Shown one piece after another: positions 8,613-61,326 of a stretch of 64,000 bases of DNA. The notes below the pieces were generated by a model that saw nothing but the letters and a program-made list of their open reading frames with translations, did not search any database and was not told the origin of the DNA. The position numbers were made by a program, and so were the translations under genes. Numbering within the stretch: the stretch's first letter is position 1; each line of letters opens with the position of its first letter. Source of the stretch: Pseudomonas azotoformans (GTDB lineage Bacteria; Pseudomonadota; Gammaproteobacteria; Pseudomonadales; Pseudomonadaceae); the NCBI RefSeq assembly GCF_001579805.1, contig NZ_CP014546.1, forward strand, positions 1-64,000. Direction: 5' to 3'.

Positions 8613-8634
8613 ATATTTGAGCTACGCTCACAAG

Positions 8635-8650: not shown

Positions 8651-8790
8651 CACTGTGGTGGTTTAAATGTGGCAATTTCTGAGCTCGCTTACCGTTTGAG
8701 TTCGTCTTTTGTAACGGTGAGTGAGTCTCATCCAGACAATTCATTTGTTGTTTCGCGCGGCTTCCCTTTTGACTGATTGGACATAACGGC

Positions 8791-10662: not shown

Positions 10663-10674
10663 AGGAGACGATCT

Positions 10675-10920: not shown

Positions 10921-10924
10921 GATC

Positions 10925-38300: not shown

Positions 38301-38726
38301 ATGAGCTTTTCCATTCTAGGTCCCATCGCCGAAGGCGGCGTGATATTGCCTTTCTGCTCCTTCCAGGTCCCAGCTGGCTTCCCCTCGCCCGCAGCCGACC
38401 ACATTGAGCGGCATATCTCACTGGACGAGGTTCTGAACATCCGCGCCCCCCATGTCTACCTGATCACCATCACTGGCGACAGCATGCAGGGTGCTGGAAT
38501 CTTTGAGGGTGACATTGGGATCGTTGACCGCTCCATCGAACCGGTTCACGGGCATCTAGTCGTCGCAGCGCTGAACAATGAGCCTATCTGCAAGCGCCTG
38601 TGCAAGCGCGGCAACGAGGTCATACTGCTGTCAGAAAACCCGAAATACCCTGCGCGGTACATCCTTGAAGGCGATGAGCTGTCGATCTGGGGCGTCATCA
38701 CCAGCACAGTGCGCAGCCATGTCTAA
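38301..38726 (+). CDS. umuD: UmuD/RulA-like translesion polymerase subunit (S24 peptidase)
   Basis: 141 residues. Peptidase S24 motifs: Ser in [14 protein letters not shown] and the Lys in [13 protein letters not shown]. RecA-stimulated self-cleavage would occur in the N-terminal arm (near [10 protein letters not shown]). It is the first gene of the SOS-controlled umuDC (rulAB) operon typical of Pseudomonas plasmids and islands. Its stop overlaps the umuC start. The partner UmuC is split, so this copy probably lacks a functional polymerase. Confidence 0.92.
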
Positions 38727-39073
38727 GCAGGCCCCTGTCTACGCGCTGATCGACTGCAACAGCTTCTACGCCAGCTGCGAGCGCGTGTTCCGGCCGGACT
38801 TGGCCAAGGTGCCGATCGTGGTGTTGAGCAACAACGACGGCTGCGTCATTGCCCGCAGTTACGACGCCAAGCCCTTCATCAAAATGGGCGAGCCGTATTT
38901 CCAGATCAAGGCACAAGCTCAAGCAGCACGGCATCATTGCGTTTTCGTCGAACTACGCGCTGTACGGCGACATGAGCGAGCGCGTCATGACCTTGATCGA
39001 GGCCATGGTGCCGGCAGTCGAGGTGTATAGCATCGATAAGAATAAGTTGCATACTGTGGACGCCCAAAGTTAG
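38719..39073 (+). pseudogene. umuC: UmuC/RulB 5' fragment, interrupted by a GInt
   Basis: Starts at 38719: [20 protein letters not shown] then [20 protein letters not shown], the Y-family polymerase N-terminus. One extra G at 38910-38911 shifts the frame; the other frame goes on [20 protein letters not shown] to VEVYSID at 39037. The next codons of the motif (EAF) are replaced by foreign sequence ending in TAG at 39071-39073. The missing part resumes at 54143. The break lies inside the SIDEA motif that carries catalytic Asp/Glu. Confidence 0.9.
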
Positions 39074-39080
39074 ATGGGGC

Positions 39081-39092
39081 ACCCATGGACAT
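39081..39092. repeat. Terminal inverted repeat copy near the left GInt end
   Basis: ACCCATGGACAT at 39081-39092 is the exact reverse complement of ATGTCCATGGGT at 54114-54125. They lie about 45 and 20 bp inside the two junctions. The left copy overlaps a small palindrome ATGGG-GCA-CCCAT (39074-39086). Likely recombinase-binding sites. Confidence 0.55.
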
Positions 39093-39098
39093 TGACGC

Positions 39099-40412
39099 TT
39101 GTTTTTACAGAGATATCCCTTGGCTACCGTTGAGCACATTCACTTCAGTCCGCATGACCTTTCTGTCAAAGACCGCCTAGTTACCTACTCGTCGAATAGC
39201 TCCCGCGTAGTAATCGAAGGGCTACCACAAATATTCTGGGAGGACGGTTTGCCATGGAGAGAGGCCAATCTCTGGGCTATGGAGAGAGTCACCAATGGTG
39301 AGGCACTCCTTAAGACCGTTTCTAGCAACCTGAACGGGCTGTTGAACTACGCGAAGTTTTTGGAGAGTCGCAGGCTTCAGTGGTTTGAGTTTCCGTCTCG
39401 AAAGGCTGATCGATGTCTTGTTCAGTACCGTGGGGCGCTTATCAAGGCTCGTGATGCTGGTCATATCAGTCCTGCCACGGCTTCCGAGTACATGCGTAAC
39501 TGCATCAGTTTCTACAGGTGGGTTAGGAGGCGCGGCCTTCTAAACCCGCTATTGCCGCTGTGGAAGGACATGCGCTATTTCATCAAATTCTTTGACCAGG
39601 TGGGCTTCGAGCGAACGCTAGCTGGCACCACCACCGATCTGGGTATTCCAAACCGAAAACGCATTGGGGGCACTTTGGAAGGTGGGCTACTTCCTGTGTC
39701 TGCGGCTGATCGAGACGCCATTCTTGATTTCGCAAAACAGAACGCCTCACCCGAGCTTTATCTGATGTTGGCTCTAGGTTTCTTTACGGGTATGAGACTG
39801 GGAACGATCTGTGACCTTCGTATTGATACGTTGGAGCGTGCCTTACATGATCCGTCTGCTAAAGGTCTGCTTCTGATATCCGTAGGGCCAGGTGCGTCCC
39901 CACCCGTGCATACCAAATTTGGAGTAACTGGCCAGGTATGGATTCCCGAAGCTTTGTGTTCAGAAGTCTTGGAGTACACCAAGAGTCTTCGCAGGTTGAC
40001 TCGCGAGGCATCTGCTGCTGGCGAGCATCAAGACTTAGTGTTCTTGACACGATTCGGAAACCCTTTCGGACGTCGCAACAGTGATCAGTCTTCGGCCATA
40101 AACGTTGAGATGTCATCGCTTAGAAAATTAGGTATCGCGTCGGGCATCAAAGCGCTCAGGAAATTTCGCTTCCACCAATCCCGATGCACCTTTGGAACTG
40201 AGCTAGCTAGGCTCGCTTTAGCAAATTGCACTGATGTGGCGATAGTGATTGCGACTGTCAGCAATGCATTGCTTCACGGGCCAAATTCGGAGGCTACCAC
40301 CTTCAAATACATCAAATTTGTGCAGGCCGCACCCGCTAAGCAGGCCATTGCGAACAGCTTCATGGCTGCGTTTACAGGGATTGCTTCGATGCAGGGAGCA
40401 AACAATGAATAA
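39099..40412 (+). CDS. ginA: GinA, tyrosine recombinase 1 of the GInt trio
   Basis: 437 residues with a weak TTG start at 39099; no better start is seen, so the N-terminus is uncertain. Catalytic region: FFTGMRLGTICDLR (Arg I), KFRFHQSRCTFGTELARL (H-x2-R) and NALLHGPNSEATTFKYIKFV (H/Y with the nucleophilic Tyr). Its stop overlaps the ginB start (ATGAATAA). In GInts the first three genes are tyrosine recombinases and all four are needed for excision or integration. Confidence 0.86.
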   Translation: MFLQRYPLATVEHIHFSPHDLSVKDRLVTYSSNSSRVVIEGLPQIFWEDGLPWREANLWAMERVTNGEALLKTVSSNLNGLLNYAKFLESRRLQWFEFPSRKADRCLVQYRGALIKARDAGHISPATASEYMRNCISFYRWVRRRGLLNPLLPLWKDMRYFIKFFDQVGFERTLAGTTTDLGIPNRKRIGGTLEGGLLPVSAADRDAILDFAKQNASPELYLMLALGFFTGMRLGTICDLRIDTLERALHDPSAKGLLLISVGPGASPPVHTKFGVTGQVWIPEALCSEVLEYTKSLRRLTREASAAGEHQDLVFLTRFGNPFGRRNSDQSSAINVEMSSLRKLGIASGIKALRKFRFHQSRCTFGTELARLALANCTDVAIVIATVSNALLHGPNSEATTFKYIKFVQAAPAKQAIANSFMAAFTGIASMQGANNE

Positions 40413-42141
40413 TCTGACGTTTTCAGACCTAACGTTTCCAGTGCTTGAGTACGCGAAAAATGAGACGCCCTGGGATCTGGCACCACTTTTATACAGCGGT
40501 GGTGCTAAGGCAAAGGTGAAGACTGTACGCAGTAAAATCACATCAGGTGCTTTAGGTGATCCTTTGCTGGAGCGGGTAGAGCTTGTGAAGGAGCTCCATG
40601 ACTGTTTGACCGACGACCTTGTCGGCGGGGGGAGCCGCTTTTCGGCAAATAACAAGATTGGCGCGTTGAGGAAGTTTTTTCAGTGGGTGGATCAGTGTGA
40701 GCGTCCTTTGAGCATTGATACGGTCGCGGAGGAATACCTGGGGTGGGCTGAACATCTTCTACAGCGTCATCGCGTGGAAGGATACCTAACTGCCGGATCG
40801 TTATACGACACGGCAAGTTTAACCGCGACGATGCTCGACCGAGTTCTACGCCGAAGCTCGACGCTTCTGTACAGCACCCGAATTCGCAAGCCTAGAGGCA
40901 ACGGAAGGGCCAGTAATGGGGGCGCTAATAAGCAAAGTTTAGAAGAGAGCTTTTCATTCGGGCAGTTCATTGCCGACCTCTGTACGGCCCTTACCTATGA
41001 AGCAGTGACGGGGCCACTTCCCATCCAAGTGGAATTGCGGTCGGGTTCGACGCTACCTATCTGGTGCGGCCTGCGCGATACAGAGAAGGAAGCGTCACGA
41101 CGAATTCGACCTCAAACCAAATTCCAGATTGCGGACATCCTTCGAAACCGCGAACTTCGGAATTCTGACGTTTCAATCAACACTCGATACCCGGCGGTGA
41201 ATCTACGAATCGAAGCCGAGCTGCTTATGTTCATCGCACAAACCGGCATGAATTTATCGCAGGCGCATCAGCTTCGAATCGACCAATACCATTACATGAG
41301 TCATCTTGATGGTTACCAAGTGAGGTCTTACAAAAATCGCCGTCAGGGTGAAGTGCTGTTTGAGGTTTTCTCAAGCTACAAGCAGTGGTTCGAACGCTAC
41401 ATTGAGTGGCGAAACACGTGGTTTCCAGACGATCTAGAGGGGCTTCTTTTCCCTCTTGTCCGTCCAGGGGGACGTCTCGCTTTAGAAGCTCCTCAGTTCA
41501 CGGCTATTGCGCGCGTCTGCACCGTTTCAAATGTTCGATTCGTTCGACCTCGCAAGCTCCGGGGCGCGCGTATCAATTGGCTGTTACGTGAGTCGCAACG
41601 CCCCGAACTGGTGGCGGAAATCGCACAGCACACCGCTGAAACTTTGATTCGTGTGTACGCCGAGCCCAATCCGCAAATTGCGATGATTGAAATCACTCGA
41701 TTTCACCGGCAAGCAGATCCCGTCGTTTGCTCACCTGCTCCAGGTACTTGTGTGGCGCCGATACCAGAATCGGTCGTGGATGCTCCGACTAATGCTCCTG
41801 GTCCCGATTGTATTAACGCAGCGGGTTGCCTTTTCTGCGTCAATCATCGGGATATTGAAAGCGAGGATCACGTCTGGTCTCTGAGTAGTTTGCGAGTGCT
41901 CAAGAGCTTGGAGCTGGCTAGATACCGCCCAGCTTGCACGGATAGATCTGACGAGGCTCACCATCCAGCGATGCTTGCGGTCGAGCGTCTGAGTGCGAAG
42001 TTACGATTCTTTCAAGAAAGTAGCGAGGTGCGTCGGCTTTGGGTTGAAGAGGCACTGGCTCGCATAGCTGAGGAGGACTATCACCCAGCTTGGGACGGAT
42101 TTATTCGGCTTGCGGAAGTTACAGAGGGGCCTTCCCTATGA
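40405..42141 (+). CDS. ginB: GinB, tyrosine recombinase 2 of the GInt trio
   Basis: 578 residues from the ATG at 40405, inside the end of ginA. The recombinase core includes TGMNLSQAHQLRIDQY (degenerate first Arg motif, Asn for Arg), a later RKLRGARINWLLRES box, and HTAETLIRVYAEPN with a candidate nucleophilic Tyr. A Cys-rich stretch near the C-terminus (CINAAGCLFCVNHRDIES) may bind zinc. It is translationally coupled to both neighbours. Confidence 0.83.
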   Translation: MNNLTFSDLTFPVLEYAKNETPWDLAPLLYSGGAKAKVKTVRSKITSGALGDPLLERVELVKELHDCLTDDLVGGGSRFSANNKIGALRKFFQWVDQCERPLSIDTVAEEYLGWAEHLLQRHRVEGYLTAGSLYDTASLTATMLDRVLRRSSTLLYSTRIRKPRGNGRASNGGANKQSLEESFSFGQFIADLCTALTYEAVTGPLPIQVELRSGSTLPIWCGLRDTEKEASRRIRPQTKFQIADILRNRELRNSDVSINTRYPAVNLRIEAELLMFIAQTGMNLSQAHQLRIDQYHYMSHLDGYQVRSYKNRRQGEVLFEVFSSYKQWFERYIEWRNTWFPDDLEGLLFPLVRPGGRLALEAPQFTAIARVCTVSNVRFVRPRKLRGARINWLLRESQRPELVAEIAQHTAETLIRVYAEPNPQIAMIEITRFHRQADPVVCSPAPGTCVAPIPESVVDAPTNAPGPDCINAAGCLFCVNHRDIESEDHVWSLSSLRVLKSLELARYRPACTDRSDEAHHPAMLAVERLSAKLRFFQESSEVRRLWVEEALARIAEEDYHPAWDGFIRLAEVTEGPSL

Positions 42142-44159
42142 ATATGCTCACGACGTTAGGGCTTTCTATCGAGTCGCCTCTCGCCGTTCCTGGGGCATCG
42201 AATTACCGTCCAGAGAGCTGGCCTCCGCCACCTGATTGGCCGGTCGTAATTGATGCACAGGGCAAAGTAATAAGCCGTTGGGGCGATCCAATTTGGAGGC
42301 TTGATCCATGGGCCAAGAAGGCACTGACGCTGAATTTTGGTGATGGGCCAGTTAAAAAATCAGCGGCGCCAATTAGCTCAAAGAACGCAAATTTACTTCG
42401 AATCATCACTGGCTGGTGGCTATACGGGCCGTACGGCGCTCGTGGCTACAGATCCCTTAAAACGCGTTTCGATCAGATGCGACGGCTCTTTGTTCTTTGC
42501 GAAGAGGCAGGAATCCTTGCCAGCGAATTAAGCCACTTTCCACGCGTATGCGAACGGATCCCTGCCTTTCTTCAGACCTCGAGAAAAACCGAGTTTCTGA
42601 CGTTAATGCATGAGCTTTACGCGTCCAGAGAGGCCGTAGGGTTTACGTTGCTGGATTCAGGCTCTCTAACCCGTCTAGCTGCGCTTTTTCCCACTCACCA
42701 CACCTCTCAAACACCGTACATCCCGCCACGTATTTGGCGCTATCAAGTTACTAGGCTGCGAGAGTGCCTTGATGACTTCCTATCCCATCGAGAACAGGTT
42801 GAAGCTTGTTATCGGTTCTGTTTCGCGGCTTACGAACATAACCAGAGGGTTTCGGAGAGAACGGCGTGCGTAAACGCCCCGCCTTTTAGCGGCCATAAAA
42901 AGCAGTTATCAGGCTCTAAAACGGGGCTTCGTTTTCTCGGCGCGTTTGCAGATACCGCGAAACGCTTCGGCATCCTTGAGCTACTTGAGCGTTGGGTGGG
43001 TCGAAGTGACGACCTACAAGTAAAAGCGTTGACTAGCTATCTGAAACTGGTCAACCGCGCGGGATTAGCTTACATCCTTAACTTCAGTCTTATGCGGGTC
43101 GAAGAAGCCTGGAATCTTCGAGCCGGATGCCTTGACGTCGAGCACGACAAGAGTTTCGGCGACATTTTTTTGTTACGTGGACAGACTACAAAAACGCTGT
43201 CTGATAGCGACGCCCTGTGGGTCACATCCCCCTCTGTGGAGGTCGCCGTGAGGGCGATGGAGGTGATCTCCCTGTTCCGCTCATTACACGCGTCTCACTC
43301 AGAAGCGAATGGTCTTGCTGGGCGTTATTTGAGTGATTCTTATAACGAGCCGTGGAGCCCAGTGCGCAAAAAAGATGATCACTCACTGAGACCGAGCATT
43401 CCGCCATATTCCGATCTTTTGGGGCAGTTCGACAAGCTCTTTGATTTAGAGCGTTTGCGTATCACGCCTGAGGATTTGAAATTGGCCCGGCTAGCTACCC
43501 CTACACTGCCGGAGGAGTATCAAGTGGGCGCTGTATGGCCGTTGGCGTGGCATCAGTTGCGTAGAACTGGGGCAGTGAACATGCAAGCTTCCGGGCTCGT
43601 AAGTGATGCTTCGCTTCAGTACCAGCTCAAGCACGTCACTCGATCAATGAGCCTTTACTACGGACAAAATCACTCGCGGGTGCGTCTAGAGGAGAAGGCT
43701 CACACCCTGTACGTTCGCACAATGTACGAGACGCTTGGAAGAGAGTTACAGCAGCTTACGAGTGAGCGTTTTGTCAGTCCACATGGAGACAAACGAAAGG
43801 CCGAGATCGTTCGGCTGATTTCGCCAGAAGATGCGAAGAAGATGATTGGTTTGGCCAAGAAAGGCGCTGTGGCCTGTCGCCCGATCATTCTTGGCGTTTG
43901 TTCGAGTCGGGAACCTTGTCCGTACGGCGGAATTGACAACATTGCCCATTGCGGGGGCGGTGATTCAGTGGGTGCAAAACCTTGCCCTGATGTGCTGTAT
44001 GACTCAGAACGATTGGGCACGGTAGATGATCTTGAACATGTACTCAAAGAGCGGCTTGCGACTGCTCAGAATGGGAGTCCGCTAATGGAATCGTTGATGG
44101 CTCAACAGCGAAGCGTAGAGAGCTTCCGTCGTGTCGTAGGGAGCGCAAATGGACGTTGA
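42138..44159 (+). CDS. ginC: GinC, tyrosine recombinase 3 of the GInt trio
   Basis: 673 residues from the ATG at 42138, overlapping the ginB stop (ATGA). Recombinase motifs: SLMRVEEAWNLRAGCLDVEH (Arg I), AWHQLRRTGAVNMQASGLVS (H-x2-R) and SLQYQLKHVTRSMSLYYGQN (H and nucleophilic Tyr). The C-terminal part has a Cys cluster (CGGGDSVGAKPCPDVLYDSE). The last 11 bp overlap ginD. Confidence 0.85.
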   Translation: MNMLTTLGLSIESPLAVPGASNYRPESWPPPPDWPVVIDAQGKVISRWGDPIWRLDPWAKKALTLNFGDGPVKKSAAPISSKNANLLRIITGWWLYGPYGARGYRSLKTRFDQMRRLFVLCEEAGILASELSHFPRVCERIPAFLQTSRKTEFLTLMHELYASREAVGFTLLDSGSLTRLAALFPTHHTSQTPYIPPRIWRYQVTRLRECLDDFLSHREQVEACYRFCFAAYEHNQRVSERTACVNAPPFSGHKKQLSGSKTGLRFLGAFADTAKRFGILELLERWVGRSDDLQVKALTSYLKLVNRAGLAYILNFSLMRVEEAWNLRAGCLDVEHDKSFGDIFLLRGQTTKTLSDSDALWVTSPSVEVAVRAMEVISLFRSLHASHSEANGLAGRYLSDSYNEPWSPVRKKDDHSLRPSIPPYSDLLGQFDKLFDLERLRITPEDLKLARLATPTLPEEYQVGAVWPLAWHQLRRTGAVNMQASGLVSDASLQYQLKHVTRSMSLYYGQNHSRVRLEEKAHTLYVRTMYETLGRELQQLTSERFVSPHGDKRKAEIVRLISPEDAKKMIGLAKKGAVACRPIILGVCSSREPCPYGGIDNIAHCGGGDSVGAKPCPDVLYDSERLGTVDDLEHVLKERLATAQNGSPLMESLMAQQRSVESFRRVVGSANGR

Positions 44160-44595
44160 ACTCCCTGCTCGCCGCAGCGCGGCTGATCAATATCGTGATG
44201 CTTTTGAGCGCCTGAAACGCAATAGGCCACAGCTTCTACCAAAGGGGACACCAGTCACTCAGAACAACGTGGCCAAAGAGGCCGGGAGCGATCCGTCGGC
44301 GCTTAAGAAATCTCGTTTCCCGAGTCTCATCGCAGAGATAAAAACCTACGTGGAACAACATGCGGAGGAGCGACCTCCTTCGTTGAACAAGGTAAATCTT
44401 CTCGCCCGGCAGAAAAGCCGCGCCCTGCGTGATCGGATTGAGCAAGTTGCCCGGCAGCGCGACCAACTCGCAAGCTTATTGAGCGAAGCGGATGCGAAAA
44501 TCATTGAGCTGTATGACCGTATCGCTGAACTTGAGCGGCAGTTGCCTGCGTCCAACATAATTTCGTTGGATCCGCATGGGCCCAGAAAGCTTTGA
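44149..44595 (+). CDS. ginD: GinD, small DNA-binding/coiled-coil protein of the GInt quartet
   Basis: 148 residues. The N-terminal half has a helix-turn-helix-like region (VTQNNVAKEAGSDPSALKKS) and the C-terminal half a coiled coil (RALRDRIEQVARQRDQLASL, AKIIELYDRIAELERQL). This is the pattern of the fourth GInt gene and of Tn554 TnpC-like proteins. It overlaps ginC by 11 bp, so the four genes form one translation unit. Confidence 0.82.
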   Translation: MDVELPARRSAADQYRDAFERLKRNRPQLLPKGTPVTQNNVAKEAGSDPSALKKSRFPSLIAEIKTYVEQHAEERPPSLNKVNLLARQKSRALRDRIEQVARQRDQLASLLSEADAKIIELYDRIAELERQLPASNIISLDPHGPRKL

Positions 44596-44783
44596 GAGGA
44601 CAGCTCGTATGCAGCTAGTCGCCTGGGTGTACACGACCCGCGACTAGCCACTAAGCGAAAACCCATCAGCGCTCCTGCCTGGTGCATGGGAGGTGGGATA
44701 ATCAGCGGACTATGGCTTTTAATCGAGTTTAAAGACCAATCCGGTTAGATTATCGAAAACAACAGGATGATGGATTGGTATAA

Positions 44784-45452
44784 ATGAGCAAAGTCGACGG
44801 TACGCCAGGCTATAGAACGGAAAGCTTCAATTGCCCGCGCTGTGGTGCATTCGCCGGCATGAAATGGAGCGACTTGCTCTTGAACAGCAATGAGTACGCC
44901 TCTGTATCCTTTTCGTTCTGTTCCGCTTGCAAAGATCCCAGTATTTGGATCACTGATGAAGGTGGTGGCAGGAATGGCCTCAAGCCTGGAATGCCTATGG
45001 AAGGGCATCTAGGAAGCAGGATAAAACTGATTTTCCCTTTGGAGTGCGTCGCACCCAAGGCAGAAGATGATATGCCTGAGGGGATCAAAGCGGATTATGA
45101 AGAAGCTAGATTGGTTTTCAGCCACTCTCCTCGCGCTGCGGCTGCTCTGCTGCGATTGTGTGTGCAAAAGCTTTGTGAGGAGCTTCTAGGCAAACCAGGC
45201 AAAATCCACAATCAAATTGGTGAGCTTGTAGAGTTGGGATTGCCCAGCCGACTGTTGAAGGCGTTCGATACCATTCGTATCTTCGGAAATGAGTCGGTAC
45301 ATCCAGGAACTGTCAATCTCAATGACAGCCCAGAGGTCGCGCTAGCGCTTTTTACCCTGCTGAACATGGCGGTTCGTCACTGCATTACAGAAGAGAAGGA
45401 GCTGGAGGCAATACGTGCGTTAACTCCTGAACATAAGCGGCGGAACATCTAG
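44784..45452 (+). CDS. DUF4145-domain protein, GInt cargo
   Basis: 222 residues. It has an N-terminal zinc-ribbon (SFNCPRCGAFAGMKW, FSFCSACKDPSIW) and a C-terminal helical domain: RAAAALLRLCVQKLCEELLG, LKAFDTIRIFGNESVHPGTV. DUF4145 is HEPN-like; here RIFGNESVH supplies an R-x4-N-x3-H type motif. DUF4145 domains occur in some restriction and defence proteins, but this is a stand-alone gene. It has its own intrinsic terminator. Confidence 0.78.
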   Translation: MSKVDGTPGYRTESFNCPRCGAFAGMKWSDLLLNSNEYASVSFSFCSACKDPSIWITDEGGGRNGLKPGMPMEGHLGSRIKLIFPLECVAPKAEDDMPEGIKADYEEARLVFSHSPRAAAALLRLCVQKLCEELLGKPGKIHNQIGELVELGLPSRLLKAFDTIRIFGNESVHPGTVNLNDSPEVALALFTLLNMAVRHCITEEKELEAIRALTPEHKRRNI

Positions 45453-45514
45453 CTAGTCCATGAAGGCAATGCTTGTAGCCAGCGTCTGGTTGGTGTAAGT
45501 GCGCCGGCATTGGA

Positions 45515-45539
45515 GAAGCCCTCAGGAAGGGCTTCTTTT
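45515..45539 (+). terminator. Rho-independent terminator after the DUF4145 gene
   Basis: GAAGCCCT (45515-45522), CAGGA, AGGGCTTC (45528-45535), TTTT. A classical intrinsic terminator, 62 bp after the stop. Confidence 0.85.
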
Positions 45540-45576
45540 GGCCGATTTCTGCCTGTCGTGAAGGGCTGCATCCGAC

Positions 45577-47256
45577 CCAGGCTGTGTGAAAACGCGCTAA
45601 AGACGTCGAAAACTGAGAGTCGCGAGGGTTGCCTGTGGAATCAGTGAGCGGAAGCGCGAATTACCTTAGTCAGCTACATAGACGTTCGTAATGCCGTTTG
45701 GGCCGCGTCAGCGGCCCAAACGGCTACTAACTGGCGAGCCAAGTGGCTGGATTTACGCCCTGATCGCCTCAAGCAGTCCTACGATGCCGAAGATGCTCAT
45801 CATTCGTTTGAGGTTGTAGGCGAGTACATGAAGACTCATTTCGGTACTTACCCGCGGAAGTGTTTTGGTCAGGAAGTGGGTGGCTCCCATCCAATATTTG
45901 AGCGTTCCAAAAGGATGCTCAACAGTCTGGCGGCGAACCTTCATCTTCCCCGGGTCATGTTCCAGCCGAACCTGCATCGCGTCGATTACCGCCTCATGTT
46001 CCCAGCGCTTCACACGGCGCTCCTTACCCGTCGTACATTGTTTTTGCATTGAGCAGGACTGGCAGCCCGAGAAGTAGTAACAATGCAATAACATGCCGTC
46101 TTCCATCGACGAATGCCGCCTGGTTAGTAGCTGCCCCGCTGGGCATCGATACTCGTCCGATGCAGCAAGGTAGATGAAGTCCTGCTTACCAAATCGGCCT
46201 TCGGCTTTGCTGCCAGATGTGAGGGGTTTCGGTACGAAGGTAGTGATGCCGGCTTGCTCGCAAGCAAGGATTTCCAGACCTTTGTAATAGCCTCGGTCGG
46301 CCACCACCGTTAGCGATTCAGCCTCGATTTCTTCACGCGCTTGGTTCGCCATATTGCTCAGTTGCCCACGATCATTACCAACGTTGGTCACCTCATGGGC
46401 AACGATCAGATGGTGTTTGTCGTCGACAGCTGTTTGTACGTTGTAGCCAACCGTTCCGGTGCCTCGGCCGCTCGTGGCCATTGAGCGTGCATCTGGGTCT
46501 GTGAGGGAGATCTGCTGGTCTGGACTTTCGTGGAGCTGCGTCTCGATTTCCTTGAGTTTCTGCATCTGCTTTTTCAGTGTTTCTATCTTTTCTTTAAGCC
46601 GCTCTGCTTTGGCCTCGGCCACTTCGGGCGTTGCCCGATCCGCCGAATCCATCGCTGCCAGATATCGATCAATGCTCTGCTCGACCTGCTGCATGCGTGC
46701 CTTCACCTTGCCCTGAGTGAAGTTGCGGTCGCGATTATTGACGGCTTTGAATTTGCTGCCGTCGATGGCAATGATCGACTGAGAGAAGAGATTGAGGTTG
46801 CGGCAAAGCACCACGAACTGGCGGCATACGCTGCGAATGGCTTTGCCGTTGTCTTTGCGAAAGTCGGCAATGGTTTTGAAGTCCGGAGCCAAACGCCCCG
46901 TCAGCCACATCAACTCGACGTTACGCTCGGCCTCACGCTCAAGCCGGCGGCTGGACTGAATCCGGTTGAGGTAGCCATAGATATAGATCTTCAGCAAGAC
47001 CGCTGGGTGGTAGGCCGGACGACCAGTTGTGGCAGGATCGACGCCCTCAAAACCAAGTGCGCCCAGGTCGAGTTCATCGACGAAAACATCGACCACACGC
47101 ACTGGATTTTCTTCGGCTACGTAATCGTCCAGACACTCTGGCAGCAGTGTCACTTGCGTCCGAGCCTCACCTTCAATAAATCGCTTCATGATCGCCCCCG
47201 ATACGATCTAGACGATCAGAAGGTTAGACAATCACTGGCGTTTTCACACAGCCTGG
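45577..47256 (-). mobile_element. IS1182-family insertion sequence
   Basis: About 1.68 kb bounded by perfect 19-bp inverted repeats: CCAGGCTGTGTGAAAACGC (45577-45595) and its reverse complement at 47238-47256. It contains one transposase gene on the minus strand. No obvious target duplication was seen at the ends. It sits between the DUF4145 gene and the AraC pseudogene within the GInt cargo. Confidence 0.85.
45753..47189 (-). CDS. IS1182-family DDE transposase
   Basis: 478 residues. The N-terminal DUF772-type domain (GRPAYHPAVLLKIYIYGYLN, FKTIADFRKDNG) precedes the catalytic DDE domain: IIAIDGSKFKAVNN (first Asp), LTVVADRGYYKGLEI (second Asp) and RRQTVEHPFGTLKYWMG (Glu). A coiled-coil insert (EAKAERLKEKIETLKKQM) is usual for the IS1182 group. 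The frame is intact, so it may be active. Confidence 0.93.
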   Translation of the reverse strand: MKRFIEGEARTQVTLLPECLDDYVAEENPVRVVDVFVDELDLGALGFEGVDPATTGRPAYHPAVLLKIYIYGYLNRIQSSRRLEREAERNVELMWLTGRLAPDFKTIADFRKDNGKAIRSVCRQFVVLCRNLNLFSQSIIAIDGSKFKAVNNRDRNFTQGKVKARMQQVEQSIDRYLAAMDSADRATPEVAEAKAERLKEKIETLKKQMQKLKEIETQLHESPDQQISLTDPDARSMATSGRGTGTVGYNVQTAVDDKHHLIVAHEVTNVGNDRGQLSNMANQAREEIEAESLTVVADRGYYKGLEILACEQAGITTFVPKPLTSGSKAEGRFGKQDFIYLAASDEYRCPAGQLLTRRHSSMEDGMLLHCYYFSGCQSCSMQKQCTTGKERRVKRWEHEAVIDAMQVRLEHDPGKMKVRRQTVEHPFGTLKYWMGATHFLTKTLPRVSTEMSLHVLAYNLKRMMSIFGIVGLLEAIRA

Positions 47257-47342
47257 ACCCAAAGCGGACGGTCATCTTAGTCTGAGTTCAGCTTGAACAG
47301 GCCGGCCGTTCACCCAAACCCTCTGCCAATCTAAGTGGCTTA

Positions 47343-47909
47343 TCAACGCCCAGAAGAACAGCGGGTGAAGTGTGGGGTCATGTGACTCTGGTCATGGAAC
47401 CATGCCGCCAGAGCGGCATCCACCAGCGTGAATCGGTCAAGCACCAGTGCGCGGGACAGGTCCAGGCGGCGCAAGGTCACGAACCGATAGTGGCTAGCGC
47501 CATACAGAACCCTGAAGTCTCGGGAAAGACTCCACCTTTCGCGGCCGCTGGCATGCTCAAGCATCTCCAGCGTAATGCCCAGGTGAAAATGAGCCATAAT
47601 GAATTCCCTTGCGCGCTCGGCCGCTTGATAATCCAGACGCTTGCGCTCGTGAGGTTTACCAGCAACCGCACGCAGTGCCGTTGCCAGATCAAACAATGCG
47701 TCCTGTTCCTACAGAGCGTCGAGCGGATGATCCATTGCCTGTACAAAAGGTTCGCTGGCCTGATACAGACGTGGGTCGTTCGAGAGTCCGCCGACAATAA
47801 AGGGCAATGGTTCTCCATCTAATACCTGTTGGATCAGGTGTGTAATTGCATCGACGTGACCACCCATTTGCACTCCATTTGACCAGGCGTTTGCATCCGA
47901 CATGACCAC
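47343..47909 (-). pseudogene. AraC-family regulator with in-frame stop
   Basis: A cupin-like N-terminal piece (47909-47712, GGLSNDPRLYQASEPFVQAM) and the AraC helix-turn-helix half are in the same frame but separated by a TAG at 47709-47711. The HTH part is LGITLEMLEHASGRERWSLS, LYGASHYRFVTLRRLDLSRA, AALAAWFHDQSHMTPHF. The C-terminus also ends early (HFTRCSSGR). Located 10 bp after merB on its strand, it was probably a passenger of the mer region and now looks inactive. Confidence 0.7.
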
Positions 47910-47919
47910 GAGTAGGCAT

Positions 47920-48561
47920 TCACGATGGGGCTGGTCCGGCAGGACCTAACAATTTGCAACCGATCGCGTGCCCCAGACGAAACGCTTCCTCAACACTAAC
48001 AACAATCGCCGTCTCGCCGTGTTGCGACATCCACTTGTCGGCCACAGCGGCAGAGGCGAAAAAATGCACATGGCAGCAAAAGGAGCGGCGGATGTCGGAC
48101 GATTCATCTGGCAGCAGCAGCGATACCACTGCTTCCGCAGGCTCAATATGACTGACTTGATTCGGTGTCACGTTGAGCGACACTGGCGCTCCTGTCGCGG
48201 GGCAGCGCGAAAGCACGCGCGCCTCCTTGCCGATTATCACGGGGAACATTAGGGTGTCCAATGCACACCAGGTGTAGAGGCGTCGGCCATCGATTTCAAA
48301 GGCATGAGACGTCTTGCGCAGCGTTAAGCCATAGCCGACGATGTTCTCCTCCTCGTCGTTCTCGGTGCCGGGTATCTGGTCAAGTGCCGCCGCGACTCTT
48401 TCGGTAGACCAACCGAGCGCGGCTCCAAGCGTCTCTCGTGAAACTGGACTTCCCAAGGCAATCTGGCGAAGAAGAGCAACGAAGAGGTCCGCGAAATCAT
48501 CTGTGCTATTGGCAGAAGAGAGGCTTTCAACAATTTTGGTGATGTACAGCGTGGTTTCCAT
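47920..48561 (-). CDS. merB: MerB, organomercurial lyase
   Basis: 213 residues, the normal length. The catalytic residues correspond to Cys96/Asp99/Cys159 of R831b MerB: Cys99 and Asp102 in LYTWCALDTLMFP, Cys162 in RRSFCCHVHFF. It cleaves the C-Hg bond of organomercurials, giving Hg(II) for MerA. With merB present the mer module is broad-spectrum. It is separated from the rest by a merA 3' remnant and about 250 bp, so it may have been added by recombination. Confidence 0.95.
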   Translation of the reverse strand: METTLYITKIVESLSSANSTDDFADLFVALLRQIALGSPVSRETLGAALGWSTERVAAALDQIPGTENDEEENIVGYGLTLRKTSHAFEIDGRRLYTWCALDTLMFPVIIGKEARVLSRCPATGAPVSLNVTPNQVSHIEPAEAVVSLLLPDESSDIRRSFCCHVHFFASAAVADKWMSQHGETAIVVSVEEAFRLGHAIGCKLLGPAGPAPS

Positions 48562-48586
48562 GGTTCCTGTCCTATTTCATTGCTGT

Positions 48587-48846
<260 letters not shown>

Positions 48847-49059
48847 TTAGTCGTCGTGACGGGTACTGACCTTTGGTGTACAGGGGTGATCAGGCTCGGA
48901 TGCCGCTCTCCTATCCGCGCGAGACATGAAACGCTGATAGCACTCCAGGCCACAGAAGTGCACGACGTACTCGGTACCTTCCGGCGTAAGCGCGGCGTCA
49001 AGGGAAATTTCCTTGCAACATTCGCAGCAACTGATAGTGGGGGTGTCGTTTGCGTTCAC
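48847..49059 (-). CDS. DUF3330 Cys-rich protein
   Basis: 70 residues from a GTG at 49059: [36 protein letters not shown]. The two Cys clusters are the DUF3330 zinc/metal motif, found with Tn21/Tn501-type mer transposons. The open frame continues upstream into an EAL-domain remnant ([20 protein letters not shown], about 49060-49185) that corresponds to the Urf2 gene normally following merE. A deletion has fused that fragment to this gene. Confidence 0.75.
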
Positions 49060-49219
49060 GATGGGGTTCCTCCATCGTCCAAGAAAACCTAGTAACCCTT
49101 CCGCACCTGTGATCGAACCTGTGCGCAGATCGATCTGCGGCTGGTAGTGCAGCAGAAATTCCCAACGCTCCCAAGTCTGCCGCAACTCGGCAGTGGAGAC
49201 TGCGCAGTGTCTGAGATGG

Positions 49220-49456
49220 TCACTGCCGCACTCGAAAGGCCCGTAGTGCTGCTCTCAGGAAGAGGATGAAGACAACCGCCAGTGCGAGCGCAGCGAGGCT
49301 CCAATGTTCGCTGACGAAGGCCCCGGCCGCAGTCCCCGAAAGCAGCAATGCCAACACCGGCAAATGGCAGGGGCAAGTGAGCGCGGCGAGCACACCCCAC
49401 GTGTAGGCGCGCCAGCGGGGCATCTTGATTGATTCGGATTGGTTGGTATTACGCAT
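49220..49456 (-). CDS. merE: MerE, mercury uptake membrane protein
   Basis: 78 residues with two membrane helices. The metal-binding pair is in [20 protein letters not shown] (Cys-Pro-Cys). It transports Hg(II) and possibly methylmercury inward. Its start overlaps the merD stop by 8 bp, as in other mer operons. Confidence 0.93.
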
Positions 49457-49811
49457 GGGCGTGACCTTCGACGGCGCGATGGGTCAGCCCGGCCAACTCC
49501 GTTTTCACTGCGGCTAAAACTGCCAGCCGTGTCGCGATTTGCCCAAGCAAGCGGTCGATACACCCGATCACATCGGTACTATCGTCTGCATCGAGCGCTC
49601 GACAGAGCCGCGCCAAATCGTCGAGCCCGATACCGGACTCGAAGGCGGCACGCACGAAGCACAGCCGCGCCAGGGACCGCTCATCGAAAATGCCGTAACC
49701 GCTTTCCGTGCGCCGCGCGGGATGCAGCAAGCCGCGCAGCACATAATCGCGGACTATATGGACACTGACGCCCGCGTCCTCGGCCAATCTGGATATGGAG
49801 TAGGCATTCAT
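49449..49811 (-). CDS. merD: MerD, mer operon co-regulator
   Basis: 120 residues from MNAYSISRLAEDAGVSVHIV, an HTH of the MerR type (DYVLRGLLHPARR, LCFVRAAFESGIGLDDLARL) without the three Cys of MerR. MerD binds the mer operator and lowers expression once mercury is removed. It overlaps merE downstream and the small ORF upstream. Confidence 0.93.
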   Translation of the reverse strand: MNAYSISRLAEDAGVSVHIVRDYVLRGLLHPARRTESGYGIFDERSLARLCFVRAAFESGIGLDDLARLCRALDADDSTDVIGCIDRLLGQIATRLAVLAAVKTELAGLTHRAVEGHAHA

Positions 49812-50017
49812 CACCGACACTCCCGATCTTCACCGTAAACTGGGGCGCTCAGATATTTCCTTCCAGCCAGGCGCTCAGGTAGCCAGAGGAGCAACGGTGT
49901 AGCCCCCAGAGCCAGTAGCAGCCTGGACACGACGGCAGGCAGCCCCCAGATGCTGATCACCTGCCATGTCTTGCGTAGGCTGTCGCACCTACCGAGATCG
50001 TCTGCCATGTTGCTCAT
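49811..50017 (-). CDS. Unknown small membrane protein inside the mer operon
   Basis: 68 residues, start ATG at 50017 with GAGGGAGGTTGAAAC before it, a strong ribosome site. One membrane segment (VVSRLLLALGATPLLLWLPE) follows a basic/polar N-terminus (MSNMADDLGRCDSLRKTW). The Cys at 11 is single. It does not match MerC, MerF, MerG or MerH. It lies 20 bp after merA and overlaps merD by 1 bp, so it is a true part of the operon. Confidence 0.6.
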   Translation of the reverse strand: MSNMADDLGRCDSLRKTWQVISIWGLPAVVSRLLLALGATPLLLWLPERLAGRKYLSAPVYGEDRECR

Positions 50018-50037
50018 GTTTCAACCTCCCTCTCTCA

Positions 50038-52187
<2,150 letters not shown>

Positions 52188-52199
52188 CGGAACTCCCTC

Positions 52200-52478
52200 C
52201 TATTGCTTGACGCTGGACGGATAGCCGGCGTCCTCGGTCGCCTTGGTCAGCGCCGGGGCAGTGGTCTTGGCGTCGTCGAAGGTGACGATGGCCTCGCGTT
52301 TCTCGAAACTCACCTCAGCCTTGGTCACGCCATCGACCTTGGTCAGCGCCTTCTTCACCGTGATCGGGCAGGCGGCGCAGGTCATGCCCGGCACCGCCAG
52401 AGTGATGGTCTGCATGGCTGCCCAGACAGGCGTGACAACCAGGGTGGCAAGGGCGATGGATGCGAGCAGTTTTTTCAT
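52200..52478 (-). CDS. merP: MerP, periplasmic mercury-binding protein
   Basis: 92 residues: a signal peptide (to VWA|AMQTI) and a single HMA domain with VPGMTCAACPITVKKAL. It passes Hg(II) to MerT. The gene is 13 bp after merT. Confidence 0.95.
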   Translation of the reverse strand: MKKLLASIALATLVVTPVWAAMQTITLAVPGMTCAACPITVKKALTKVDGVTKAEVSFEKREAIVTFDDAKTTAPALTKATEDAGYPSSVKQ

Positions 52479-52491
52479 GGCGAACTCCTGA

Positions 52492-52842
52492 TCAGTAGAA
52501 CAAGGGAAGGATGTAGGGGAAGCCGAGCGCGACCAGCACCAAGGCCGCTACCAGCCAGAACAACAGCTTGTAGGTGGTGCGTACCTGAGGGATGGCGCAG
52601 GCCTCGCCCGGCTTACAAACTTGTAGTGGTCGAAAAATGCGCCGGTAGGCAAAAAACAGCGCGATCAACGCCCCGCCGATAAAGATCGGGCGGTAAGGTT
52701 CCAGCACGGTCAGGTTGCCGATCCAGGCCCCGCTGAATCCCAGGGCAATCAGAACCAACGGCCCAAGACAGCAAGCCGAGGCGAGAATCGCTGCAAGCCC
52801 TCCAGCGACAAGAGGGGCGCGCCCGTTTGATGGTTCAGACAT
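52492..52842 (-). CDS. merT: MerT, mercuric transport protein
   Basis: 116 residues from the ATG at 52842 with AAAGGAG upstream; the frame begins further up only because the operator is translatable. There are three membrane helices. Cys pairs are in LASACCLGPLVLIALG (first helix) and the cytoplasmic loop CKPGEAC. First gene of the merTPCA-orf-DE operon. Confidence 0.95.
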   Translation of the reverse strand: MSEPSNGRAPLVAGGLAAILASACCLGPLVLIALGFSGAWIGNLTVLEPYRPIFIGGALIALFFAYRRIFRPLQVCKPGEACAIPQVRTTYKLLFWLVAALVLVALGFPYILPLFY

Positions 52843-52877
52843 GCATTTCTCCTTTCGAGCATTTGAGCGATGGGTTA

Positions 52878-52908
52878 AGGTTAGTCCCGTAGTCAAGTAC
52901 GGAGTCAA
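52878..52908 (-). promoter_or_regulatory. mer operator/promoter
   Basis: On the minus strand: -35 TTGACT (52908-52903), a 19-bp spacer with the dyad CCGTACTTGACTACGG (52902-52887), and -10 TAACCT (52883-52878). The long spacer and dyad are the MerR binding site. merR is transcribed divergently from 52914. Confidence 0.9.
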
Positions 52909-52913
52909 GTACC

Positions 52914-53333
52914 ATGGATAACACTGCGGGAAGCCTGACCATCGGCGCTTTCGCCAAGGCGGCCGGGGTCAACGTGGAAACCATCCGGTTCTATCAACGC
53001 AAGGAACTGTTGCCCGAACCAGACAAGCCCTATGGCAGCATTCGCCGCTACGGCGAGGCGGATGTCTCACGGGTGAAATTCGTAAAATCCGCGCAACGGC
53101 TAGGCTTTAGCCTCGAAGAAGTGGCCGGGCTATTGAGGCTGGATGACGGCGCTCACTGCGATGAAGCGCGTGTGCTCGCCGAGCAGAAGCTCGTGGATGT
53201 GCGTGGGAAACTTGCGGATTTGAAGCGGATCGAGTCAGTTTTGGAGCAACTGGTTCACGACTGTTGTGCGAGCCACGGGACTGTTTCCTGTCCGCTGATT
53301 GTTTCACTGCATAGGAACAAAGAGCCGCGCTGA
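52914..53333 (+). CDS. merR: MerR, mercury-sensing transcription regulator
   Basis: 139 residues. HTH at the N-terminus ([23 protein letters not shown]), and the three Hg(II)-binding Cys: 82 (HCDEARVL), 117 (DCCASHG) and 126 (VSCPL). It represses without Hg(II) and activates merTPCA-DE with it. A second site of the same type at 53760 suggests that it also controls the PtrA-like gene. Confidence 0.96.
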
Positions 53334-53390
53334 CCTACGATCAGCAGTTTCGTAAGGCGCCCCTGTTGGTCGGCTAGGGCTTAAAGAAAA

Positions 53391-53409
53391 CGGCGCTCAA
53401 TGAGCGCCG
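53391..53409 (-). terminator. Terminator after the MerR-controlled ptrA-like gene
   Basis: CGGCGCTCA-T-TGAGCGCCG on the minus strand, followed by TTTTCTTT: intrinsic terminator for the leftward gene at 53533-53715. It also lies 57 bp after merR on the other strand, where the T run is missing. Confidence 0.75.
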
Positions 53410-53532
53410 CTGAATGGCCGAAGGAGCACTCGCAGAGGCCACAGATGGGTAACTGACATCTACGCTCGTGCCTTATCAGGACAAACTCACACTGAGTCTG
53501 GTCGAGCGGAACGTGCAACGGTTGCTCATGTC

Positions 53533-53715
53533 CTACCTTGCGGGTGAACAGACGGGCTGCTCCCCTTGTTGCTTAATCTTCACCACCAAGGCTGCCTCAG
53601 CCTTGTCGTGCATAGAGGCGGCCCGCTCAATCAAACGATCGCTCCCGCCCTCGGCCCATATCGTGGATGACAGCAGAGTCGAACCAACTATCAGCAGTAG
53701 TCTTAGGTATTTCAT
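53533..53715 (-). CDS. PtrA-like periplasmic protein behind a MerR-type promoter
   Basis: 60 residues from the ATG at 53715, preceded by GAGGAGG. Signal peptide (to STIWA|EGGSDR), then EGGSDRLIERAASMHDKAEA, the PtrA-type start found also at 3510, 8406 and 16145. It is shorter, ending LVVKIKQQGEQPVCSPAR with one Cys. Upstream is a second mer-type operator (53760-53775). It is located in the GInt next to merR, so it is probably mercury-inducible. Confidence 0.78.
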   Translation of the reverse strand: MKYLRLLLIVGSTLLSSTIWAEGGSDRLIERAASMHDKAEAALVVKIKQQGEQPVCSPAR

Positions 53716-53756
53716 AACAGCCTCCTCTCGGGTTTTATACCCACGAGTCGACTCTA

Positions 53757-53781
53757 TCTCCGTAGTTAAGTACGGAATCAA
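53757..53781 (-). promoter_or_regulatory. Second MerR-type operator/promoter
   Basis: On the minus strand: -35 TTGATT (53781-53776), dyad CCGTACTTAACTACGG (53775-53760) at the start of a 19-bp spacer, and -10 TAGAGT (about 53756-53751). The dyad differs from the merT one in a single base. It directs transcription of the PtrA-like gene at 53715, and there is no second merR gene. Confidence 0.78.
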
Positions 53782-54061
53782 GGAGGAAATGGAGTTGAAG
53801 AGAACCTAGATTATGGCGCTGAGAGAAGATGGTAGGGCTTAAGTGCACTTTCTGTTCCGTTGCCCCCCAACCCCCAGCGAGACGAAGCAGGATCGGAACC
53901 GAGCGCTTCTGGCGGGAAGCAGACCTGCGTTGACAGTCCACTTCTGGCGATAGCTGCCTGTTATGAATGATCCCATTAGGACAGAAGCGGTTCTGTCCAC
54001 AGTCAAAAGCAGATTTTGGTATGGACAAATCAGACTCTGAAAGCCCCTAATAGGTGCGTAT

Positions 54062-54123
54062 CCATGGACATGGTGCATTCAGCGTGAAACCAGGATTGGC
54101 GCAAGTTTCACGCATGTCCATGG
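54062..54123. repeat. Nested inverted repeat at the right end of the GInt
   Basis: Outer arms CCATGGACAT (54062-54071) and ATGTCCATGG (54114-54123); inner arms GCGTGAAAC (54082-54090) and GTTTCACGC (54105-54113). Together they form a 62-bp structure with two stems and an asymmetric left bulge of 10 bases, 20 bp inside the right junction. The outer arm matches ACCCATGGACAT near the left end. It is likely a recombinase-binding site; it also resembles a folded attC in general form. Confidence 0.6.
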
Positions 54124-54142
54124 GTTGACATCTTTCCTTTAG

Positions 54143-55108
54143 ATTGACGAGGCGTTTGCCGATCTCACGGGAATGGCAGACCTCGATGCTCTGGGCCGTC
54201 GGATTCGGAATCAGGTGCTGCGCTGTACGGGAATCCCGGTAGGTGTAGGCATAGCCCACACCAAAACATTAGCAAAGCTGGCCAACCACACTGCGAAGCG
54301 CCTTCAGGGGCAAACCGGTGGAGTGGTCGACATCTGTTCCCCAGCCAAACGTGACTGGGTACTGCGCAACACCGATGTGGCCGAGGTCTGGGGTGTTGGT
54401 CGACGAATGAAGCTGCACCTGGATGGGATGGGTATCAAATCCGCGATGGACCTGGCCAAGGCGGATCCTTCGATGCTGCGCAGCAAGTTCAGCGTAGTGA
54501 TCGAAAAAACCGCGCGGGAGTTGTCCGGCACGCCATGCCTGGAGCTAGATGAACCTGACCCGCCAAAACAAGAAATCTGCTGCAGCCGGATGTTCGGCAA
54601 GCGCCTGACCGAACTGGCGCCGATCAAGGAGGCTGTGGCCACCTACATGATGCGGGCCTCCGAAAAGCTGAGGGCACAGAAATCCCTGTGCAAAAAAGTC
54701 CGCGTGTCCATTCGCACAGGGATGTTCAACCCCGACGAGGCGAAGTACGCCAATGGGGTGGTGGTGGATCTGCCGTACCCAACGGACGACGTGCGCCTGC
54801 TTACGCGGGCCGCTGTTGAAGCAGTCGGGCAGGTTTTTCGCGCGGGGTTCAACTACAGCAAAGCCGAAGTCATGTTGCTCAACTTATGCCAATCGGGTGA
54901 GTACACGGATGATCTGTTTGCGGTCTCGCAGCCAGCCGAGGCGACCAGGGTGATGACTGTTCTTGATGAGATCAATGAGCGTTGGGGAAAGGGCACGCTG
55001 CGGTCGGCGAGCGTGCCGGATAACCCTGACTGGGCGATGCGGCGTGATTTGATGAGTCAGAGCTATACAACTCGGCTGGATCAGTTGTGGTCGGTTAGGT
55101 GTCATTAG
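54143..55108 (+). pseudogene. umuC: UmuC/RulB 3' fragment
   Basis: Continues the interrupted gene in one frame: IDEAFADLTGMADLDALGRR, then GVGIAHTKTLAKLANHTAKR, the polymerase palm and thumb, and the little-finger domain to LDQLWSVRCH. It has no start of its own; an internal ATG at 54173 opens the frame. About 322 codons. With the first half at 38719-39037 it gives a complete UmuC of about 425 residues. Confidence 0.92.
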
Positions 55109-57350: not shown

Positions 57351-58100
57351 ATGCTCGCCTCTCTCTCGTCAGTGAAAAAAACCATCCTGGCGCTCATCTT
57401 GGGCACGGCAACGCTCGTAGCTACATGGAGCGCCTTGGCGGCTGCCGATCCAGAATCCGCCACCAACACAAAGCTCAGTGATACCCACATCACTCAGACT
57501 GAGTTGGCCCGCGAATGGGGCTTAACCTCCCAAGAATGGAAGCGCTACCAAACGTTGATGAATGGCCCACGGGGCATATATTCGCCTGGCCTGGATCCCT
57601 TAACAACCCTGGGCATCGAGGCCAGAACCGCCGACGAGCGCAGGCGCTATGCAGAACTGCAGGTAAAGGCCGAACGCGAACGCGTTGATAAGGAGCTGGC
57701 CTATCAGCGCGCCTACGACCAAGCATTCGCCAGCCTCTACCCCAGCGAAAAGATCATTCAAATCACGCCCAACCCGCTGTCCCTCGCCTCACGTCCACCG
57801 CCCCAGCTGAAAGCCGCGAGCCGACTGGCGATCTTCGTACAAGACAACTGCACGCCGTGCATCGCGCGCACCAAAGAACTCCAAGCCCAGAAGCTGCCCT
57901 TCGACCTCTATTTCGTCGGTAGCCAAGGCGACGACCGAAAAATCCGCCGATGGGCGCTGGCAGCCGGTATTGAGCCGGAGCGTGTACGCGACAAGCAGAT
58001 CACGCTGAATCACGACGAAGGTCGCTGGCAAAGCACAGGCCTCGGCGGCGAGCTACCGGCCGTAGTGCGAGAGGTAAACGGACAGTGGCAACGTCAGTAG
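57351..58100 (+). CDS. TIGR03759-family ICE protein
   Basis: 249 residues with a signal-like N-terminus (to LAAADPES). ELAREWGLTSQEWKRYQTLM and GPRGIYSPGLDPLTTLGIEA are the family signature, and a thioredoxin-like part follows (LAIFVQDNCTPCIARTKELQ, CxxC). It belongs to the conserved transfer module of ICEclc/PAGI-type elements. Its stop overlaps the next start by 16 bp. Confidence 0.82.
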   Translation: MLASLSSVKKTILALILGTATLVATWSALAAADPESATNTKLSDTHITQTELAREWGLTSQEWKRYQTLMNGPRGIYSPGLDPLTTLGIEARTADERRRYAELQVKAERERVDKELAYQRAYDQAFASLYPSEKIIQITPNPLSLASRPPPQLKAASRLAIFVQDNCTPCIARTKELQAQKLPFDLYFVGSQGDDRKIRRWALAAGIEPERVRDKQITLNHDEGRWQSTGLGGELPAVVREVNGQWQRQ

Positions 58101-58642
58101 GCTGCACAGTATTGGCAGCGAGCCTTTTGCTCAGCGTAGCCTTTGCGAGCGCTAGGGAGACTCCACCACCGGCCTATCAGTTGATCGCTCTGCCTGCCGG
58201 TGTGCCTTCTGAGGTGCTGTATTCCATCGCCTTACAGGAAAGCGGTACCAGGCTTCGTGGGCAACTGGTGCCTTGGCCTTGGACATTGAATGTTGCCGGC
58301 AACGGCTACCGCTTCGCCAACCGCAGCGATGCATGCGGTGCATTGCTGCACGCGCTGCGAACTGCCGGTTCCCATCGCGTCGACGTAGGTCTAGGGCAAA
58401 CCAACCTGGGCGCAAACGGCCATCGCTACAGTTCGCCCTGTGAAGGGCTGGACCCGCACAAAAACCTTGCGGTCACGGCGCGGATCCTGGCGGAGCACAA
58501 ATCCAAAGGTGGCGACTGGATCACCGCCGCCGGCCGCTACCACCGCCCGGCCGGGGGCGAGCCCGCAGTCCGTTATCGCCGAGCATTTACCAAACATCTC
58601 AACCGTGTCATCGGCACAACCCCAATGGTGAATAACCCATGA
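58085..58642 (+). CDS. Lytic transglycosylase of the ICE transfer module
   Basis: 185 residues with a GTG start and signal peptide (to ASARETPP). The SLT-like catalytic Glu is in LYSIALQESGTRLRGQLVPW, followed by VDVGLGQTNLGANGHRY and NLAVTARILAEHKSKGGDWI then TAAGRYHRP. It opens the peptidoglycan for the conjugation channel. It overlaps both neighbours. Confidence 0.88.
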   Translation: MATSVGCTVLAASLLLSVAFASARETPPPAYQLIALPAGVPSEVLYSIALQESGTRLRGQLVPWPWTLNVAGNGYRFANRSDACGALLHALRTAGSHRVDVGLGQTNLGANGHRYSSPCEGLDPHKNLAVTARILAEHKSKGGDWITAAGRYHRPAGGEPAVRYRRAFTKHLNRVIGTTPMVNNP

Positions 58643-59142: not shown

Positions 59143-59149
59143 GCGAGCC

Positions 59150-61312: not shown

Positions 61313-61326
61313 GCAGGGACGAAACA

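Follow-up and report, generated by a model that had tools for sequence, protein, structure and literature searches.

A mercury-resistance element, in all probability an SE, splits umuC at its SID codons in Pseudomonas azotoformans

The first 64,000 bases of the genome of Pseudomonas azotoformans (6.86 Mb in a single contig; NCBI RefSeq assembly GCF_001579805.1, contig NZ_CP014546.1), in the following called the window, contain a umuDC pair in which umuC is split by an element of 15,105 bp carrying mercury resistance genes (Table 1). A tblastn search with RulB of pWW0 as query aligned RulB residues 8-110 to the N-terminal part of umuC (38734-39040) and residues 108-402 to the C-terminal part (54143-55027), which bears out the original prediction, made from the letters alone, that an island cuts umuC at its SIDEA motif. 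The one other indel placed by it in the first half is real as well, as the N-terminal part aligned in two frames meeting near 38,909. The cut lies between Ile-Asp and the Glu of the motif, whose Asp and Glu we take to be catalytic residues, and the longest reading frame of the right part opens only at 54173, past the SIDEAF codons, separating the motif's Asp/Glu from the C-terminal product. DNA polymerase V (pol V) should therefore be lost in this strain. No second umuC was found in the genome, in support of the original reading: the other PF00817 matches are reading frames of 366 aa and 515 aa, which we read as DinB and ImuB.

Table 1. Features of the interrupted umuDC locus and of the inserted element (positions in the window; ORF, open reading frame)
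Feature	Position	Strand	Basis
umuD-like S24 peptidase gene at the head of the interrupted umuDC pair	38301..38726	+	PF00717, E 5.5e-28
N-terminal part of umuC, with a frame break near 38,909	38719..39030	+	tblastn with pWW0 RulB, residues 8-110
attL 6-bp spacer CATCGA, read as native copy	39031..39036	+	CATCGA in 16/27 intact relatives
SE element, 15,105 bp	39037..54141	+	end motifs common to relatives
ATGGACAT box, left end	39085..39092	+	putative binding site
intA, tyrosine recombinase	39099..40412	+	PF00589, E 1.2e-7; 74% to SE-PaeBT2436-type IntA of L076
tfp, tyrosine-recombinase-like, catalytic set incomplete	40405..42141	+	63% to WP_034039553.1; invariant N283 at expected Arg-I
intB, large tyrosine recombinase	42138..44159	+	66% to L076 protein; R320, H472/R475, H499 and Y507/Y508 invariant in 10 rows
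srap, auxiliary protein	44149..44595	+	74% to WP_023443007.1
DUF4145 protein	44784..45452	+	PF13643, E 2.9e-14
IS1182-family transposase	45753..47189	-	NF033551, 469.7 bits (cut-off 270)
merB	47920..48561	-	NF009710, 273.6 bits (cut-off 193)
merE	49220..49456	-	NF010310 over cut-off
merD	49449..49820	-	TIGR02054 over cut-off
merA ORF	50038..51954	-	NF010311 and TIGR02053 over cut-off
merC	51753..52187	-	NF010318 over cut-off
merP	52200..52478	-	TIGR02052 over cut-off
merT	52492..52908	-	NF010314 over cut-off
merR	52914..53333	+	TIGR02051, 167.2 bits (cut-off 150.85)
ATGGACAT box, inner right copy	54064..54071	+	read from sequence
ATGGACAT box, outer right copy (= ATGTCCAT on +)	54114..54121	-	20 bp from element end
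attR 6-bp spacer GATTGA, read as imported copy	54142..54147	+	0/27 intact relatives
umuC C-terminal part, longest ORF from 54173	54148..55108	+	tblastn with pWW0 RulB; PF11799, PF13438

With the six-base spacers in brackets, the left junction reads GTGTATAG[CATCGA]TAAGAATAAG and the right junction TCTTTCCTTTA[GATTGA]CGAGGCG; followed further inward, the left end runs from host sequence through CATCGA into TAAGAATAAGTTG. The spacer takes in the third base of the Ser codon, all of the Ile codon and the GA of the Asp codon, so the earlier description of six bases coding for Ile-Asp was one base off. For comparison, 32 left and 31 right ends were collected by end motifs, and likeness near the boundary is therefore partly by construction (the right end of L130 needed one mismatch in the motif, and the attR six-mer of L062 was read separately from its junction and added by hand to the end table; L and G numbers denote loci and genomes). 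In alignment coordinates, for which no motif was used, GATAAG stands at the junction, and the first base of the element is T, in 29 of 31 left rows, the two others being L073 and L075, neither of which lies at umuC. Behind the right spacer the host continues with C in 21/31 ends and with T in 10/31, while the element starts with T, which places the boundary inside the Asp codon; this is seen directly when empty megaplasmid sites (GTTGAC) are compared with attL (GTTGAT). Counted from the element start, the ATGGACAT box lies 48 bases in at 26 of 30 left ends (47 in two, 19 in two); at 30 of 31 right ends its complement is found 20 bp from the terminus. One mismatch was allowed in both cases, and the boxes may serve as recombinase binding sites.

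The site is constant among close relatives. An IntA-like protein (E 1e-10 or better) was found in 50 of 398 genomes of the genus, nine of which, own genome included, encode an IntA at least 70% identical; the left umuC junction is present in all nine, and in eight the N-terminal part of umuC ends at residue 110 by protein alignment alone. Likewise, scanning a single genome for each species turned up 23 loci; IntA reaches 70% identity or more in 21 of them, all 21 show the junction, and in 20 of these named loci the break is at RulB residue 110-111 by protein alignment alone. Both complete counts use the end motif, G171 and L072 depending on it entirely; they leave out L059 (a record identical to L048), the stretches L006-L013 and L041-L052, which repeat counted genomes, and two loci that are not at umuC (L073, IntA 48%; L075, partial, 57%). 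The hosts of loci with IntA of at least 70% identity belong to Pseudomonas, Stutzerimonas, Serratia, Rheinheimera and Snodgrassella. In the IntA tree the 23 rows from the SID site of umuC form one clade (support 100/100), and more distant IntA relatives (L014-L018, 47-51%) lie in another gene, presumably yifB/comM, at the conserved motifs APADLPKDGG and AAMNPCPC. The left-end sequence had no match in E. coli genomes. One Pseudomonas-type element (L061) lies on a contig labelled Streptomyces sp. IBSBF 2953, a label that is probably due to contamination.

These data support site-specific insertion at the SID codons as originally predicted, and the junctions of related islands, whose variation was named beforehand as a point against it, do not vary where IntA is at least 70% identical. 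The second such point, an element of this kind away from the site, was partly found, as Tn6855 (L136; ends at 1190 and 16868) is not in umuC and instead interrupts the transposase gene of a Tn3-family element at ATTCGA/TGA (the slash marks the cut, here and below). This case suggests that what the insertion requires looks like a DNA core, and the proposal that almost all Y-family polymerase genes would offer a site was not supported: the strain's own dinB, with the motif S-L-D-E-A, is uninterrupted. Insertions in dinB did not turn up, no search having been aimed at them.

Directly inside the left end, intA, tfp, intB and srap follow one another. In ten-row alignments, with motif positions assigned by eye, the set R..HxxR..H..Y is kept in IntA and IntB and is incomplete in Tfp, which retains part of the catalytic residues (R386, H409, Y418). 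The four proteins are 74, 63, 66 and 74% identical, in the same order, to those of the tmexCD2-toprJ2 element on the Klebsiella plasmid pJNQH473-3 (L076), whose genes 2 and 4 are WP_034039553.1 and WP_023443007.1; this pair, Tfp and Srap, names SE-PaeBT2436, a strand-biased circularizing integrative element (SE), in PMC10214605 (papers given by PMC number are cited from excerpts throughout). The incomplete second and complete first and third proteins, together with nearest published proteins from an SE, led us to call the element an SE, an assignment that takes the SE-PaeBT2436-type proteins of L076 as its comparison set. NCBIfam gave no meaningful score for any of the four core proteins, and the AlphaFold model of Tfp (mean pLDDT, a per-residue confidence score, 44.9) was too poor for a fold search. 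The ends are consistent with the assignment in that the 6-bp spacer is clear and the two halves of attB are kept in attL and attR. We are highly confident in the reading of the element as an SE, which would have entered the umuC core as a circular copy, with the host's six bases probably on the left and six carried bases on the right.

Among known systems, SE-PaeBT2436, Tn6855 and their variants, carriers of tmexCD-toprJ (PMC10214605, PMC8012812, PMC10229833), share with it the four genes, their order, the protein identity of 63-74% (to L076), the same kind of end motifs and, in L076 and L117, the umuC site. They differ in carrying an efflux pump instead of mer and merB and in the IntA subclade, and Tn6855 itself lies outside umuC. 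Tn6852, described together with Tn6853-55 as related, lies in a chromosomal umuC and differs in its chromate cargo with a chrA region (PMC8012812); it was compared by description only.

The original prediction had assigned the island to the genomic islands with three integrases (GInts), with the genes ginABCD, which would imply excision by ordinary integrase chemistry. Indeed, GInts are likewise site-specific and share a recombination operon of three recombinase-like genes and a small fourth one, cargo and a staggered exchange of 6-7 nt (PMC5385486). However, in GInts GinA and GinB are catalytic and the third protein, GinC, lacks the first catalytic Arg, whereas here the second protein is incomplete and the third complete, and proteins 2 and 4 have their nearest published counterparts in Tfp (63%) and Srap (74%) of SE-PaeBT2436. 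SE and GInt proteins moreover fall into separate clusters in PMC10214605, the proteins of the window being set apart from GInts by description. The sites named for GInts in PMC5385486 are ssb, an ABC transporter gene and a ribonucleotide reductase gene. We therefore consider it improbable that the element is a GInt, and the label, now corrected, was likely a mislabel.

A second alternative is that the element belongs to the integron-like elements (ILEs) in rulB described by Rhodes et al. (2014), and a mer-carrying hotspot in rulB is in fact published, at another codon (PMC4542609). ILE-FH1, ILE-FH4 and ILE-FH5 share the target gene and the order of a four-gene core, ILE-FH4, PAGI-5 and RGP63 carry mer, and a faint resemblance extends to the proteins (IntA 23%, E 1.8e-11; Srap 24%, E 2.5e-6; profile of the catalytic region of IntB, E 8e-5). 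Nevertheless, the ILEs are inserted 66 codons upstream at S-N-D/G, in the GAT of S-N-(N/S)-D (pWW0 6490-6488, the Asp codon of S-N-S-D-G, RulB residue about 42), their left end reads CTGAGGG and not TAAGAATAAG, their IntA, 23% identical in the ILE-type element of L039, forms a separate clade, and the profile comparison of the Tfp groups was not significant (control: IntB of the other group). Both kinds occur together in one umuC: in L038 and L039 the ILE-type element follows residue 42 and the SID-type element residue 110, and in L070 (G404), where both splits are present, the umuC pieces enclose an ILE-type IntA. Membership of the ILEs is refuted by insertion codon and ends, making it very improbable, and a remote kinship is possible. 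An artefact of recombination, or a larger hitch-hiking island that happens to be bounded at umuC, has practically no probability left as the cause of the split, even though umuC has a second frame break and the locus adjoins conjugative-element genes, since the same left junction is found again in different hosts and alongside different cargo.

If the element is an SE, its six-mers may record its history. In the SE model attL retains the target's own six bases, and attR receives the six that the element brings along from its previous home. Accordingly worded for the window, a circular copy with six bases of a previous home would have recombined with the umuC core NATNGA/YGA, the host's six bases (CATCGA) being kept on the left and the carried ones (GATTGA) deposited on the right. 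The attL and attR six-mers are unequal in 16 of 22 same-contig pairs and in five of seven further cross-contig pairs, whose two ends were assumed to belong together, which argues against a simple target duplication. Four megaplasmid copies of umuC (L112-L115) are empty at the SID codon and read CGTTGA or AGTTGA followed by C; the occupied L117 and L038 have CGTTGA at attL and CATCGA and CATTGA, respectively, at attR. The right flanks of L117, L038, L110 and L116 are 100% identical to the empty L115 over 200 bp, as is the left flank of L038 over 197 bp, that of L117 being 98.6% identical over 70 bp. L110, L111 and L116, read at their right ends, have GATCGA at attR, and L036 has AGTTGA at both ends. 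Tn6855 has at attL the ATTCGA found in the intact sites L139 and L140, and at attR the umuC-type CATCGA. Hence the native six-mer lies on the left and an imported one on the right in L038, L117 and L136. Among relatives of the window, 27 intact sites, taken from the best 29 of 242 matching genomes (398 searched, own included; L084 and L108 gave none), read CATCGA in 16, CATTGA in 10, TATCGA in one and GATTGA in none.

Four observations weigh against this reading. The six-mers are identical in 6 of the 22 pairs, which the SE model allows and does not predict. In L076 the intact sites L137 and L138 read CATTGA, which is its attR, its attL being CATCGA; the case is ambiguous, as the flanks of L137 resemble those of L076 too loosely (96.4 and 97.0% identity) to settle it. 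An empty copy of the window's own umuC did not turn up, the closest matches being 88% identical in the left flank and 81% in the right, and among 57 relatives the nearest umuDC reached 83% at best. Finally, the imperfect terminal inverted repeat is present and weak (8/14; shuffled p 0.013-0.022 in seven elements). For the window itself, the reading of the six-mers as native and imported, a strand bias and the activity of this copy are inferred.

Several members carry a umuC of their own. Of 19 named genomes, four have an intact umuC, preceded by umuD-like sequence, immediately behind srap and 6.1-6.5 kb from the left end. In G401 (C1:144129-145325) and G408 (C16:301886-303064) a matching right end on the same contig places it inside the element, whereas in G402 and G416 the right end is on another contig. 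The element of the window has no umuDC cargo. Such cargo might provide self-compensation and a spare landing site. Taken further, umuC might be an evolved docking station at which two distant recombinase lineages land at its two conserved Asp-codon motifs, S-N-D/G and S-I-D/E, and stack, cargo umuDC restores pol V and the six bases at attR record the last home, a speculative reading that we regard as rather doubtful; if it were true, GATTGA in the window would point to an earlier host with ..G-ATT-GA in its umuC. Two SID-site elements, in L036 (38867-39610) and L048 (11526-11723), contain fragments of a broken umuC close to their right ends; these may be left over from a umuDC once carried as cargo or from a previous insertion. 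The umuC of L061 (G405) is split like those of L038, L039 and L070.

The umuC gene has been described as a hotspot of int-int-hp-hp tmexCD-toprJ units (PMC8547460, PMC9134201, PMC10654056), with relatively conserved insertion sites (PMC9769766) and 6-bp repeats (PMC10229833), and Tn6852-54 were reported in umuC (PMC8012812). The excerpts of PMC11064530 and PMC9345347, which deal with SEs, make no mention of umuC or rulB, and in the parts of the open-licence literature consulted no description of double occupancy or of umuDC cargo was found. The element is a fresh example of a known, little-studied class and not a new kind; what is added here is the mer and merB cargo at the SID site, the mapping below the level of the codon, the double occupancy and the members with an intact umuDC. 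One gene thereby ties together the ILEs of rulB, the tmexCD-toprJ 'IMEs' (integrative mobilizable elements) in umuC and the SEs, and metal and drug resistance share a single clade of elements whose members prefer the same landing site. For annotation, an exact boundary is available, together with a possible 6-bp trace of a previous host.

Family matches confirmed the predicted cargo: a DUF4145 gene, IS1182, merB, and a mer operon composed of merR and merTPCADE. The true start of merA lies inside its ORF, as the family match begins at residue 81. A search of the cargo for inverted repeats gave ten weak pairs (70-89% complementary), and no transposon boundary is therefore claimed for the mer block. 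Its best plasmid match is from P. mandelii JR-1 (91.8% identity over 71% of the query).

On the 3' side of umuC, genes for TIGR03759, PFL_4695-family, TraD and TIGR03747 proteins show that the locus adjoins conjugative-element DNA, and the adjoining DNA, an integrative and conjugative element (ICE), is the likely vehicle. Further out, copper resistance genes (sensor kinase, P-type ATPase, multicopper oxidase) occupy the upstream side at 1-11000 and ICE-type conjugation genes the downstream side at 57351-62082, which together make up a multi-metal conjugative region.

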